A DNA stretch of 64,000 nt from Trinickia symbiotica (GTDB lineage: Bacteria > Pseudomonadota > Gammaproteobacteria > Burkholderiales > Burkholderiaceae), in assembly GCF_002934455.1 (NCBI RefSeq), contig NZ_PTIR01000018.1, forward strand, positions 62,001 through 126,000, written 5' to 3'. Below are positions 6,944-61,554 of this stretch, in pieces (the first letter of the stretch is position 1; each line of letters opens with the position of its first letter). The notes beneath the pieces were generated by a model, which ran no database searches, was not told the DNA's origin, and saw nothing but the letters and a program-made list of their open reading frames with translations. The translations under genes and the position numbers were made by a program.

Positions 6944-7314
6944 CGGCGCCCTCGTCCCAGGGCCATGTGCGGCAGCGCACGTCCGGCGTCATGCATGCTC
7001 GTCTCCTTGTCTGGCGCGGGCGCGCTCCGATGCTTGATCGGCGGCCCGTTCGGCGTTGGTAGCGATTCTATGCGGGAAATCCGATGCACGCGAGCCGTGT
7101 GGCGCGCACCGGCAAGAAACATTATCGGTGCTGCGCAATTTCGCAATTGTCGCTCGACGGTGTGCGCGGCAGTATGGCCGGCGTCCCCCAAGGGGACATC
7201 CTTCGGGAGTCTCCGAACGGCTCTCTCTCCAGGGCGCCCCCGGGTGACTTCGATCGGGAGCCCCAACAAGCCGCTTCTTCGGGGCCGCCAATACCAACAA
7301 GCAAGGAGTGAGAC
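6944..7314. other. Intergenic region between divergent xylR and xylF (371 bp)
   Basis: No gene is supported here. The region must hold both divergent promoters and probably XylR sites. Two direct CGCAATT copies lie at 7134-7140 and 7142-7148. The xylF-proximal part, 7183-7276, is a degenerate copy of the UUCG-hairpin repeat family. The xylF ribosome-binding site is AAGGAGTGAGAC just before 7315. No confident -35/-10 pair was found by eye. Confidence 0.6.
7183..7276. repeat. Degenerate UUCG-hairpin repeat in the xylF leader
   Basis: A perfect palindrome GTCCCC-CAA-GGGGAC lies at 7183-7197, followed at once by ATCCTTCGGGAG, which folds as a CC-UUCG-GG tetraloop hairpin. Weaker copies of the same GC-rich stems follow (GGGCGCCCC, then TCTTCGGGGCC). 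The order of palindrome then CCTTCGGG core matches the 50-bp units at 11.2 and 61.1 kb, so this is taken as a decayed member of that family. Confidence 0.7.
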
Positions 7315-8450: not shown

Positions 8451-10007
8451 ATGACGCAACCTCTGCTGACGATGAAGGGCATCGTCAAAGCATTCTCCGG
8501 CGTGAAGGCGCTCGACGGCATCGACCTGAGCGTCTCCCCCGGTGAATGCGTCGGCCTGTGCGGCGAGAACGGCGCGGGCAAATCGACGCTGATGAAAGTG
8601 CTCTCGGGCGTTTATCCGCATGGCACGTGGGAAGGCACGATCCTCTGGGAAGGGGAGGAGCTGAAGGCGGCGAGCGTGCGCGATACCGAGCGGGCGGGCA
8701 TCGTCATCATCCATCAGGAATTGATGCTCGTGCCCGAGCTTTCGGTGGCGGAGAACATTTTTCTCGGCAACGAAATCACGCTGCCCGGCGGGCGGATGAA
8801 CTATGCCGCGATGTATCGGCGTGCCGACGAGCTGCTGCACGGACTCGGCATTCATGGCATCAATGCCGCGCAGCCTGTGATGAACTATGGCGGCGGCCAT
8901 CAGCAGTTGATCGAGATCGCCAAGGCGCTCAACAAGAAAGCGCGCCTCTTGATCCTCGACGAGCCGTCGTCGTCGCTGACGGCCTCCGAAACGAAGATTC
9001 TTCTCGACATCGTCCGCGACCTGAAGCGGCGCGGCGTGGCGTGCGTTTACATCTCGCACAAGCTCGATGAAGTGGAAGCCGTCTGCGACACGATCACCGT
9101 CATCCGCGACGGCCGGCACGTGGCGACGGAGCCGATGCGCGCGCTTTCGACGGATCGAATCATCTCGTTGATGGTGGGCCGCGAGATCAAGAATCTCTTT
9201 CCGCGCGAACCGCATGAGATTGGCGAGGTTGTCTTCGAAGCGCGCAGCGTCACTTGCTTCGACGTGACGAATCCGCGGCGCAAACGCGTCGACGACGTGT
9301 CGTTCAGCGTGCGCCGCGGCGAAATCGTCGGTGTGGCCGGGCTCGTCGGGTCGGGGCGGACCGAGTTGATGTCCGCGATCTTCGGTGCCTGTCCCGGGGC
9401 GAGTTCCGCCGCCGTCGTGCTCGAGGGCAAGCCTCTGACGATCCGCTCACCCTCCGATGCCATACGCGCGGGCATCGCGATGGTGCCGGAGGATCGCAAG
9501 CGCCACGGCATCGTGCCCCAGCTGGGCGTGGGGCACAACATCACGCTCGCCGTGCTGAAGCGGTTCGCCAGGCGCGGCGCGATCGACGCGGCCGCCGAGC
9601 TCGATACGATCCGCAAGGAGATGCAGCGGCTATCGGTTCGGGCGGCGCACCCGATGCTCTCGATCGCGAGCCTTTCCGGCGGCAATCAGCAAAAGGCCGT
9701 TCTCACGCGCATGCTGCTGACCGAGCCGAAGGTGCTGATACTGGACGAGCCGACGCGCGGCGTCGATGTCGGCGCGAAGTACGAGATCTACAAATTGATT
9801 TTCCAACTCGCCAAGGCCGGCATGGCGATCGTGATGGTGTCGTCGGAGCTCCCCGAAGTGCTCGGCATCAGCGATCGCGTGCTCGTGATCGGCGAAGGCC
9901 AGCTGCGTGGCGATTTCATCAACGACGGTCTCACGCAGGAACAGATACTCACGGCCGCGATTCAGCCCGTCGGGGACGCCGTGGACTTGAACGAGGCGCA
10001 TGCATGA
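8451..10007 (+). CDS. xylG: D-xylose ABC transporter ATP-binding protein (two ABC domains)
   Basis: This 518-residue sugar-type ATPase has two tandem nucleotide-binding domains. The first has Walker [10 protein letters not shown] at residues 38-46 and Walker [12 protein letters not shown]. Its signature is degenerate (YGGGHQQ), which is normal for this family. The second has the signature LSGGNQQK and Walker [13 protein letters not shown], but its Walker A is replaced by GLVGSGRTE, also normal for the family. It powers xylose import through XylH. The stop codon overlaps the xylH start by 3 bases (ATGA). Confidence 0.95.
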
Positions 10008-11203
10008 CACCCGATACGATTTCTTCGCGCTCAAGCGGCGGCGCATCGCCCGCGGGCCTCGCCGGCACGCAGCGCGTTCAGCAACTTTTTGCACGCTACA
10101 AGATCCTCGCGCTGCTTTTTGCCGTCGCGGCCATCTGGCTTTTCTTTTCCATCCTCACGCATGGGGCGTTCGCGACACCGCGCAATCTCTCCAATCTGCT
10201 GCGGCAAATGTCGATCAGCGGCATGCTCGCCTGCGGCATGGTCTTCGTGATCATCGCGGGCGAGATCGATTTGTCCGTGGGCTCGCTGCTCGGTCTGGCG
10301 GGCGGCATCGCGGCGATCCTGGACGTGAACCGGCAATGGCCGATCGCGCTGACGGTGCCGATCGCGCTCGCGCTCGGCGTGCTGGCGGGCATGTTCAACG
10401 GATGGCTCTCGACGTATCGGCGCGTGCCTTCGTTCATCGTCGGGCTCGGCGGCATGCTCGCATACCGCGGCGTATTGCTCGGCCTGACCGGCGGCTCGAC
10501 GATCGCACCGGTGTCGGACCGTTTCGTCTTCATCGGGCAGGGCTACTTGCCCCGCTTCGCCGGCGACGCCCTCGCCGTCGTTTTGTTCGTACTCCTTGCG
10601 ATTCTGACGGTCCGGCAGCGTAGCAACCGGCGCCGCTACGAATTGCCGGTGCTGCCGATGTGGCAGGACGGCATGAAGATCGTGGGCGCGGGCGTCATTT
10701 TGGCCGTCTTCGTGGCCGTGCTCGACAGCTACGGCGGCATCCCGGTGCCGGTGTTGCTCGTGCTGGCACTGCTCGGCATCTTCACATGGATCGCGACGCA
10801 GACGGTGTTCGGGCGCCGCATCTATTCGGTCGGCTCCAATCTGGAAGCCACGCGTCTTTCGGGCGTCGATACGAATCGGGTCAAGCTGGCCGTCTTTGCG
10901 TTGATGGGCCTCATGTGCGCGATCGCCGGCATCGTCAATACCGCACGGCTCGCGGCGGGATCGCCGTCGGCGGGCACGATGGGCGAGCTCGACGCGATCG
11001 CCGCGTGCTTCATCGGCGGCACGTCGATGCGCGGCGGATCGGGCACGGTCTACGGCGCGCTGATCGGCGCGCTCGTCATGGCCAGTCTCGACAACGGGAT
11101 GTCGATGCTCGATGTCGACGCTTACTGGCAAATGATCGTGAAGGGCGGGATCCTCGTGCTCGCCGTCTGGATCGATGTCGTATCTGGATCGAATAAGCGC
11201 TGA
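10004..11203 (+). CDS. xylH: D-xylose ABC transporter permease
   Basis: This 399-residue integral inner-membrane protein has about ten hydrophobic segments and belongs to the ribose/xylose permease family. Typical motifs include [20 protein letters not shown] and [16 protein letters not shown]. The extended loop around residues 185-225 ([15 protein letters not shown]) is typical of XylH rather than RbsC. The start at 10004 overlaps xylG; the open frame upstream of this ATG overlaps xylG and is not part of the protein. A tandem-repeat array starts 8 bases after the stop. Confidence 0.94.
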
Positions 11204-11211
11204 AGCGGGAT

Positions 11212-11360
11212 GTCCCTAAAGGGACTTCCTTCGGGGGCCTCCAAGGGTGCCCCCTCCGGTCGCGCCTAAAGGGACTTCCTTCGGGGGCCCCAAAGGGTGC
11301 CCCCCCGGTCGTCCCTAAAGGGACTTCCTTCGGGGGCCTCCAAGGGTGGCCCCTCCGGTC
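11212..11360. repeat. Tandem array of three 50-bp UUCG-hairpin units
   Basis: Three head-to-tail units lie at 11212-11261, 11262-11310 (one base shorter, first stem damaged) and 11311-11360. Each has the palindrome GTCCC-TAAA-GGGAC, then TTCCTTCGGGG (CC-UUCG-GG tetraloop), then a GC-rich stem of the type GGGGGCCCC-AAA-GGGTGCCCCC, and ends CCTCCGGTC. The array fills most of the gap between xylH and the SDR gene. Near-identical units occur 50 kb away at 61039-61163. As RNA these would be very stable and could work as a processing or termination barrier. Confidence 0.9.
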
Positions 11361-11443
11361 GCCCCGCGCGCCGATAGCGCCGTAGGCAGGGCGCCCGGTG
11401 CGGCGTAACATCAAGCACTACTAACGAACTGATCGGAACTCGC

Positions 11444-59034: not shown

Positions 59035-60338
<1,304 letters not shown>

Positions 60339-60339
<1 letters not shown>

Positions 60340-60359
60340 CGAGCTGACTCGTTTTTTTT
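60339..60359 (+). terminator. Rho-independent terminator of the pyrG-kdsA-eno operon
   Basis: A short stem ACGAG-CTGA-CTCGT overlapping the eno stop codon region, followed by eight T. Confidence 0.75.
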
Positions 60360-60392
60360 ATCGGTCTTTCCGCCCGCCGCCGCGCGACTCGT

Positions 60393-60502
60393 TCCCCAAG
60401 GGGATTACCTTCGGGGCATCCCCACAGGGGACTACCTTCGGGGCATCCCCACAGGGGACTACCTTCGGGGCGTCCCCACAGGGGATTACCTTCGGGGCAT
60501 CC
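60393..60502. repeat. Tandem array of four 27-bp UUCG-hairpin units
   Basis: ACCTTCGGGG recurs at 60407, 60434, 60461 and 60488, an exact 27-base period. Each unit can fold as GGGGA - three bases - CC-UUCG-GG - three bases - TCCCC, a C(UUCG)G-capped hairpin with a symmetric internal loop. Units differ only at one or two positions (ACTACC or ATTACC). The array fills the gap between the eno terminator and ftsB and shares its core with the 50-bp arrays. Confidence 0.92.
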
Positions 60503-60534
60503 GCGGCGGCGTTGACTATACGGCGCCTTTTCGC

Positions 60535-60981
60535 ATGCGGCTCGTCACTGTCGTTCTTGTCGTCCTGCTCGTGCTGATTCAGTTTCCGCTTTGGTGGGGG
60601 CACGGTGGCTGGCTGCGCGTGCATGAATTACGCGAGGCGCTCGACGCGCAAGCAAAGAAAAACGCCGACGAGAAGCTGCGCAATCAGCGGATCGAAGGCG
60701 AGGTCCAAGACCTGCAAGCCGGCACGGCAGCTGTCGAAGAGCGCGCTCGCTATGAAATGGGGATGGTCAAGGACGGCGAGGTATTCGTTCAGTTCGTCTC
60801 GCCGAATTCGGCGGCGAGCACGGTTGCCGCGGCGTCCGTGAGCGCCGAAACGTCCACGCGCGGGCAAGTGTCGGCGGCGCCCGTCGCCGTCGTGCCGAAT
60901 CCCGTCTCTCGCGTCAAGCCGGCTCACGGGAAGGCCGAGAAAGGCGCCAAGAAGCAGGCGGGCGAGAAACCGAAGCGTTAG
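60535..60981 (+). CDS. ftsB: Cell division protein FtsB
   Basis: This 148-residue bitopic division protein has a single N-terminal membrane helix ([17 protein letters not shown]) and a coiled-coil (about residues 28-70, [29 protein letters not shown]). The FtsB ending [20 protein letters not shown] follows. It forms the FtsQLB complex. The Ala/Ser/Lys-rich tail after residue 95 is longer than in E. coli FtsB (103 residues). The gene follows eno, its usual neighbour. Confidence 0.92.
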
Positions 60982-61038: not shown

Positions 61039-61163
61039 GTCCCTGAAGGGACTTCCTCCGGTCGTCCCTAAAGGGACTTCCTCCGGGGGCCCCAAAGGGT
61101 GCCCCCTCCGGTCGTCCCTAAAGGGACTTCCTCCGGGGCCCCCAAAGGGTGCCCCCTCCGGTC
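61039..61163. repeat. Tandem array of 50-bp UUCG-hairpin units (one short, two full)
   Basis: A shortened 25-base unit (61039-61063) is followed by two full 50-base units (61064-61113 and 61114-61163). Each full unit has GTCCC-TAAA-GGGAC, then TTCCTCCGGGG (T changed to C in the tetraloop compared with 11.2 kb), then the GGGG(C)CCC-AAAGGG-TGCCCCC stem, ending CCTCCGGTC. The array lies between the convergent ftsB and lipoprotein genes, 4 bases from the lipoprotein stop, so it would be in both 3' ends. Confidence 0.9.
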
Positions 61164-61167
61164 GTCC

Positions 61168-61554
61168 TTACCACCACCAGCCCGGATAATAGCCGGGGCT
61201 GTAGTATCCCGCCCCCCATCCGCCGTAATAGCCGCCATACCCGCCGTAGACGACCGGTGGCGCGTAATAGGGCGCGTAGTAGCGTGCCCATGCGTCGGCC
61301 GCCATCGCTTCGTTTTGCTCCGAGAGGACTTGCTTGTCGATTTCGTCGTAACGCTTTTTTTCCGCGTCGGTAAGCGGACGCGCGGACGGCGACGCGCCGC
61401 CTTGATCGGGCGGGAGCCGGCTCAAAACCTGTCCGGACGGCGGGGCGACGACGCAGCCGGCGAGCGCCGCGGAGACGACCAGCGCGCCGATGATAGCAAC
61501 GGCTAACGGGCCGCGCGGCGAGAATGGGGCGCGTGCCGGTTTCGACGGGTTCAT
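61168..61554 (-). CDS. Small lipoprotein with Tyr/Gly/Trp-rich tail
   Basis: This 128-residue protein starts with a basic N-terminus and hydrophobic helix ending in the lipobox AALAGC, so it is probably a lipoprotein anchored at Cys34. A short charged region (LTDAEKKRYDEIDKQVL) follows, then a tail rich in Tyr, Gly and Trp (YYAPYYAPPVVYGGYGGYYGG). It resembles the small envelope lipoproteins common in Burkholderia; the function is unknown. The stop is next to a repeat array. Confidence 0.75.
   Translation of the reverse strand: MNPSKPARAPFSPRGPLAVAIIGALVVSAALAGCVVAPPSGQVLSRLPPDQGGASPSARPLTDAEKKRYDEIDKQVLSEQNEAMAADAWARYYAPYYAPPVVYGGYGGYYGGWGAGYYSPGYYPGWWW

Follow-up and report, generated by a model that had tools for sequence, protein, structure and literature searches.

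Tandem arrays in Trinickia symbiotica as probable amplifications of a 27-bp hairpin-forming mobile element

The tandem arrays found in a 64,000-nucleotide stretch of the Trinickia symbiotica genome (hereafter the window) are probably specific to this lineage and arose by amplification of a mobile element of 27 bp that is non-autonomous, forms a hairpin and has the consensus TCCCCCAAGGGGACTTCCTTCGGGGCG. The comparisons that point to such an element concern the dispersal of the unit, clean gains or losses of 27 bp, a preference for palindrome loops in the main set of copies, the occurrence of both orientations relative to genes, and the arrangement in tandem arrays. The evidence for mobility is entirely comparative, no transposition event having been watched.

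The unit and its arrays in the window

The window corresponds to positions 62001-126000 of contig 18 in an assembly of 6.71 Mb and 61 contigs. The earlier note had described a 50-bp unit present in three copies at 11212-11360 and in two and a half at 61039-61163, and Tandem Repeats Finder recovered both arrays with a period of 50 (11214-11365, 3.1 copies; 61055-61167, 2.3 copies, with an extra half unit from 61039). The GTCCC-TAAA-GGGAC palindrome of that description is present, as is its CC-TTCG-GG core, the latter being mostly replaced by CC-TCCG-GG in the second array. The basic unit, however, is 27 bp long and not 50 bp: alignment to the consensus resolves the 50-bp unit into a dimer of two diverged copies, each of about 25 bp, of the shorter repeat TCCCCCAAGGGGACTTCCTTCGGGGCG. 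By this alignment the first array (11212-11360, forward strand) is composed of six alternating half units of about 25 bp, and by repeat calling the second (61039-61163, forward strand) of five. Overlooked at first were a third array of four units of about 27 bp, of the TCCCCACAGGGGACTACCTTCGGGGCA type (60392-60500, forward strand), and a lone unit CCCCCAAGGGGACATCCTTCGGGA with divergent genes either side (7185-7208, forward strand). Searching the window for AGGGGACTTCCTTCGGGG with up to three mismatches gave 10 matches against 0.04 expected, a number reached by none of 100 shuffles.

The first array starts 8 bases past the stop, at 11203, of a forward-strand gene (10004-11203) which we take, from an annotated B. 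pyrrocinia homologue, to be xylH, encoding a sugar ABC transporter permease; it is 82-85% identical to Burkholderia records in the plasmid collection. The third array occupies the gap between two forward-strand genes, presumably eno (59056-60339, named from its sequence) and presumably ftsB (60535-60981, matched in each of the 10 congeners). The second array separates ftsB from a gene on the reverse strand (61168-61554) that we assume to encode a lipoprotein; this gene is convergent with ftsB, and its stop codon lies 4 bases past the array. The congeners are the other members of a genus set of 11 genomes that includes T. symbiotica. Their eno-ftsB gap measures 81-135 bp, compared with 195 bp in T. 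symbiotica, and inspection of their 10 ftsB loci by eye revealed no ftsB-side array. Open frames run over the arrays at 11076-11414 (reverse strand), 60358-60624 (reverse strand) and 61099-61506 (forward strand); these are likely to be spurious proteins of a stop-poor repeat.

The consensus amounts to nine codons and is free of stops in all six frames. Outside the core of 132 exact copies the sole preferences are for YGTC upstream (67 copies, with CGTC in 37 and TGTC in 30) and for a pyrimidine downstream (121 copies); the clean 27-bp insert discussed below includes at most the TC of this upstream motif.

Spread among genomes, fold and relation to genes

The suggestion of the earlier note that the repeat is an actively copied, REP-like element is supported by its further copies. 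In the T. symbiotica genome CCCNNAAGGGGACTTCCTTCGGGG occurs at 24 places with up to three mismatches, and the reversed pattern at none; a 23-base pattern at three mismatches gives 21 places in this genome and 0-3 in each of the 10 congeners. A survey of the family at two mismatches found the repeat in 74 of 299 genomes, belonging to 8 of 25 genera; a single genome (G043) has 53 copies, and none of the reversed controls gave a match. At the level of the class, the 25-mer with up to two mismatches was found in 8 of 369 genomes. Two of these (G648 and G651, from other families of the class) have 52 and 17 copies, among which a variant, CACCCCAAGGGCACTTCC, dominates, and several of these copies (among L255-L282) sit inside another repeated sequence. 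The exact 25-base core is present in at least 120 stretches of named genomes with largely unrelated flanks, and its carriers among the matches listed include Burkholderia, Paraburkholderia, Trinickia mobilis, Rhodocyclales, Azonexus, Pseudoxanthomonas and Lysobacter as well as many MAGs, some of them labelled Desulfocapsa and Pedobacter. Phages were considered as a vector and rejected, a 54-base two-unit query having drawn no match at E up to 1 from a set of 50,697 phage records; the exact 25-mer was likewise not found in viral contigs. Among plasmids, six records gave a match to this query, and plasmid pBPHY02 of Paraburkholderia phymatum STM815 contains a near copy of the unit.

One alternative, which seems unlikely, is that the unit belongs to the classical REPs, which RAYTs (REP-associated tyrosine transposases) move in the form of REPINs. 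Such an origin would suit a short palindromic repeat with an extragenic bias: 80 of the 132 exact copies are intergenic, 41 fall within genes and 11 are at the edges of contigs, so that 80 of 121 classified copies are intergenic compared with 1013 of 6000 random positions (17%), where the gene calls come from a home-made finder that errs (PurL was called on the wrong strand) and the copies are not all independent. It would also suit the lack of a clear target duplication and the RAYT-like Y1 transposase gene present in single copy in the T. symbiotica genome (G000:C13:112356-112646, L031; E 1.3e-4). Against it, only 2 of 121 exact copies have GTAG on their upstream or CTAC on their downstream side at a distance of up to 8 bases, and a neighbouring unit within 150 bp is direct at 17 of 121 copies and inverted at 1, although some inverted pairs about 65 bp apart appear among the family genomes (G140, G239, G292). 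Furthermore, the 3291-bp locus of the genome's only Y1 match contains no unit at up to 7 edits. The Y1 family occurs in 283 of the 299 family genomes and the repeat in 74; being nearly universal, Y1 is uninformative by its presence across these genomes and has no predictive value for the repeat. The link to a RAYT gene envisaged in the earlier note was therefore abandoned, since the one Y1 match is not near a unit and presence across the family is uninformative. Most family genomes carry one Y1 match, as if it were vertically inherited.

A role at the RNA level, either as a double hairpin that is reverse transcribed and inserted or as a site of mRNA processing or stability, appears rather improbable. 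A double hairpin is plausible, and two folds compete for the unit: GTCCCC-CAA-GGGGAC plus C-UNCG-G, and CCCC-C-AAGG-loop-CCTT-C-GGGG, which is preferred by the minimum-energy folds of single 27-mers. Among 150 copies, 38 of 149 changes fall on the N of UNCG in a possible cUNCGg tetraloop, a concentration that agrees with the prediction of the first fold and speaks for an RNA form; missing flanking duplications have also been interpreted in this way for the Allomyces elements (PMC2800124). The consensus strand as RNA, on the other hand, is no more stable than its shuffles (z -0.52). The complementary strand folds more stably than shuffles (z -2.38), and the whole arrays reach z values of -3.13 (11212-11360) and -3.50 (60392-60500). 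Positions 4 and 25 form a C-G pair in all but 6 of 240 copies (234), and the outer pairs are poorly kept, 1-15 and 2-14 being non-standard in 78 of 240 copies each. A candidate compensatory change in the 5' hairpin was rejected, as the variant with C at position 13 carries A at position 3 in 24 of 24 cases and never G; the resulting A-C is therefore not compensatory on the consensus strand, and corresponds to G-U on the other. In the window Rfam 15 at the gathering score returned only tRNA elsewhere and no match at the arrays, and for eight loci searched at E up to 1 its sole match, to BTH_s1 and below threshold, was in another part of L026.

The position of the copies relative to genes argues in the same direction. 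The 80 intergenic exact copies comprise 17 in sense and 20 in antisense orientation between co-directional genes, 21 between divergent and 13 between convergent genes, and 9 unclassified; the 21 places in the T. symbiotica genome are divided into 7 sense, 4 antisense, 6 divergent, 2 convergent and 2 coding. There is thus no bias with respect to transcription, and the reading of the arrays as RNA-processing elements placed after genes, which the earlier note had entertained, fails; the first array does follow xylH, but by these counts copies do not as a rule lie directly behind genes. TTTT within 12 bases on the 3' side was found at 1 of 121 exact copies and at none of the three window arrays, and a terminator or 3'-processing element was rejected as failing both the orientation and the T-run tests.

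Filled and empty sites and the loops of other palindromes

In each of four comparisons of filled with empty sites the difference amounts to 27 bp, and no clear duplication of the target accompanies it. In the first, the hosts are of the form CTACTTTTCTTTG^TCTTCCAAAGAAAAGTAG and a single genome (G049) holds both states: the empty hairpin, CTACTTTTCTTTG TCTTC CAAAGAAAAGTAG, has 31 bases and the filled one 58, that is 27 extra, which could equally be read as 25 inserted bases together with the duplication of a TC. Hairpins in both states also occur in a further genome (G135), where those lacking the insert have a different loop and are 32-33 long. In the second comparison, from Burkholderia, the host is CCCGCCATC^AATGGCGGGG, which is empty in L286, empty with one arm change in L288, and filled with 27 bp between the arms, again with one arm change, in L161. 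The third consists of two tandem copies of a host element at one locus (L057), one filled and one empty, and the fourth of TTCCGGC..GCCGGAA, filled in L101 and L107 and empty in L131 (one empty copy found), in different genomes. Outside the genus, the search for an empty counterpart of the xylH array gave none, as different genes follow xylH in B. pyrrocinia.

The comparison of proteins indicates that a unit can also reside within a gene, as a nine-residue peptide. PurL of Paraburkholderia tuberum STM678 carries, at one point, 18 residues (PQGDFLRGVPQGDFLRGV) that are extra relative to a solved PurL, and this insertion is exactly two units, in frame. An insertion in an FtsN-like protein (L056) was rejected as a clean case, because the spacer concerned is variable and repeat-like among congeners and hence provides no clean empty site. 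In the FtsN-like orthologues of the genus (L239-L252) this N-terminal spacer varies in length from species to species, with unit-like PKGTSFGA/AKGTSGA stretches.

From its sequence context, a favoured target in the main set of copies is the loop of another palindrome. This set was derived from 127 exact copies with full flanks, one of which was left out because of Ns and 18 because another unit lay nearby, the remaining 108 giving 68 contexts; arms were required to be perfectly complementary over at least 7 bp and to start no more than 10 bases away. Such inverted arms enclose the unit in 12 of the 68 contexts, compared with 1.3% of mismatched left/right pairs, and in a permutation test (mean 1.04, highest 5) none of 2000 permutations reached 12. 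The other 56 contexts are without 7-bp arms. Some of the 12 look related (L095 with L128; L093 with L107 and L205), so they represent about nine kinds of host palindrome as judged by eye and are not all independent; the arms of L097 hold unit-like letters. In the class-level set, 2 of whose 26 copies come from the T. symbiotica genome, none of the 26 has arms of at least 6 bp. In the family-locus set 5 of 26 have arms of at least 7 bp, against 4.8% of mismatched pairs, but at least four of the five share one host type and we therefore do not count them in support of a loop preference.

Since both ends of larger host repeats are filled in two genomes (G135, G049), some copies have spread with their host. 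One might go further and suppose that there is no mobile unit as such, and that the copies are fragments of larger repeats distributed by host repeats, recombination and slippage; this we also regard as improbable. The palindrome-bounded repeats with a unit at both ends would be in line with such a process, and so would the units embedded in a larger operon-spacer element (L020, L023, L025), but clean gain or loss of 27 bp has occurred in four different hosts and the unit stands alone inside PurL. The CTACTTTTCTTTG palindromes (G135, G049, G121) are often paired about 400-700 bp apart, resembling the ends of MITE-like repeats, with a 27-bp insert possible at both ends. For one host locus of B. 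multivorans (L128), the plasmid collection gave a 48-base match only.

The operon-spacer element is a second, larger repeat (L032, L035, L036, L012, L020, L023, L025 and L033, in the T. symbiotica genome). It reads CCCCCACGCTCACT..GCTGCCCCC..GGGGGC, followed by a hairpin in which the loop TTGGGGCGGCCCGGC is near-constant and the sequence of the stem varies from copy to copy with complementarity kept. In two copies (L032, L036) the sequence of the flanking genes' stop/start junction is found at both ends. The element reads as a mini-ORF (MKRPPRSL...), and unit-like sequence is present in the loops of several copies.

In the window itself, the eno-ftsB array is enclosed by perfect 10-bp arms on the forward strand, CGCCGCCGCG at 60375-60384 and CGCGGCGGCG at 60502-60511; of 3000 positions drawn at random from the window, 0.07% have arms of at least 10 bp. 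Around the xylH and ftsB arrays the arms measure just 5 and 4 bp, respectively. The eno-ftsB gap of the 10 congeners holds a GC-rich hairpin and then a T-rich stretch; by eye, the hairpin loop contains one clear unit in G003, and the gap contains diverged unit-like sequence in G008 and G010, partial sequence in G007 and none in the other six. That the arrays are intrinsic transcription terminators multiplied by slippage, as their standing in place of this hairpin and T run could suggest, is highly improbable given the near absence of T runs, the lack of orientation bias and the copies in coding sequence.

A possible mode of movement and comparison with known systems

Returning to a mobile element of 27 bp, we consider that insertion probably takes place via single-stranded DNA by means of a trans-acting enzyme and is followed by tandem amplification. 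The preference for palindrome loops points to single-stranded DNA. Copying of the unit would occur in trans at times when the DNA is in single-stranded form, with palindrome loops exposed at replication forks or in cruciforms; the mover could be a hairpin-recognising nuclease or transposase of the HUH (Y1) kind, or else replication-coupled strand transfer, and the number of units might afterwards be altered by slippage. A Y1 transposase would fit because there is no target duplication, yet no link to one was found. More tentatively, and with slightly less than even confidence, we propose that the 27-bp hairpin, open in six frames, may by itself suffice as a minimal mobile unit that is moved in trans, targets palindrome loops, is common to Beta- and Gammaproteobacteria, is amplified in tandem, and can add multiples of nine residues in frame to proteins like PurL.

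Such an element would belong with the smallest bacterial mobile units known so far. As filled and empty sites exist within one genome, its mechanism is directly testable, and since it is 27 bp long, stop-free and frame-neutral it would offer a route for new peptide segments into essential proteins. In Burkholderiaceae, it may also be the source of some variable-number repeats and some spurious small ORFs. We searched the literature both by the letters of the repeat, judging matches by title, and by words, in a corpus with few subscription journals, and found no description of it.

With the REPs and REPINs of Pseudomonas and enterobacteria, which are moved by RAYTs, the unit shares a short palindromic sequence, an extragenic bias, non-autonomy and dispersal. 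Some REPs form ordered tandem clusters (PMC3116915). In contrast to REPs and REPINs, the 27-bp unit is shorter, has no GTAG tag, is not organised as inverted doublets, gave no sign of a linked RAYT, and is found in the loops of other palindromes. The CGTC-tagged REPs (Neisseria dRS3, Rickettsia RPE-4/6) are likewise small palindromes, and CGTC or TGTC precedes about half of our exact copies. According to PMC3733652, these REPs have no known dedicated transposase, some of their units are intragenic, and their stem of 8-9 bp opens with A-T pairs and is followed by a three-base tail, mostly CCA. The 27-bp unit differs in that the full YGTC lies outside the clean insert, in that there are no A-T pairs at the base of the stem, in that CCA follows only 2 of 121 exact copies, and in that its units group head-to-tail, whereas CGTC REPs group head-to-head.

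The enterobacterial RU sequences are described as small, mobile, MITE-like and ORF-carrying sequences of 103-168 bp (Delihas, 2007; PMC2759123). The 27-bp unit resembles them in that it may contribute peptide, and is unlike them in being smaller and open in all six frames. The mitochondrial double-hairpin elements and GC clusters of Allomyces, yeast and sponges are tiny, often GC-rich and mostly non-coding; they occur occasionally in genes without a frameshift, and their units merge (PMC4478555, PMC2800124). Flanking duplications are not reported for the Allomyces elements. The mitochondrial elements resemble the 27-bp unit in size, hairpin and location and differ in residing in an organelle and, for the yeast cluster, in using an AG target.

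The SDRs of cyanobacteria, from another lineage, may also be likened to the 27-bp unit. Elhai, in 2008, reportedly characterised them as 'very small mobile repeated elements', hairpin units of a few tens of bases, which apparently move by themselves and also enter other repeats. By these analogies, the 27-bp element would seem close in kind to REPs, SDRs and the mitochondrial double-hairpin elements.
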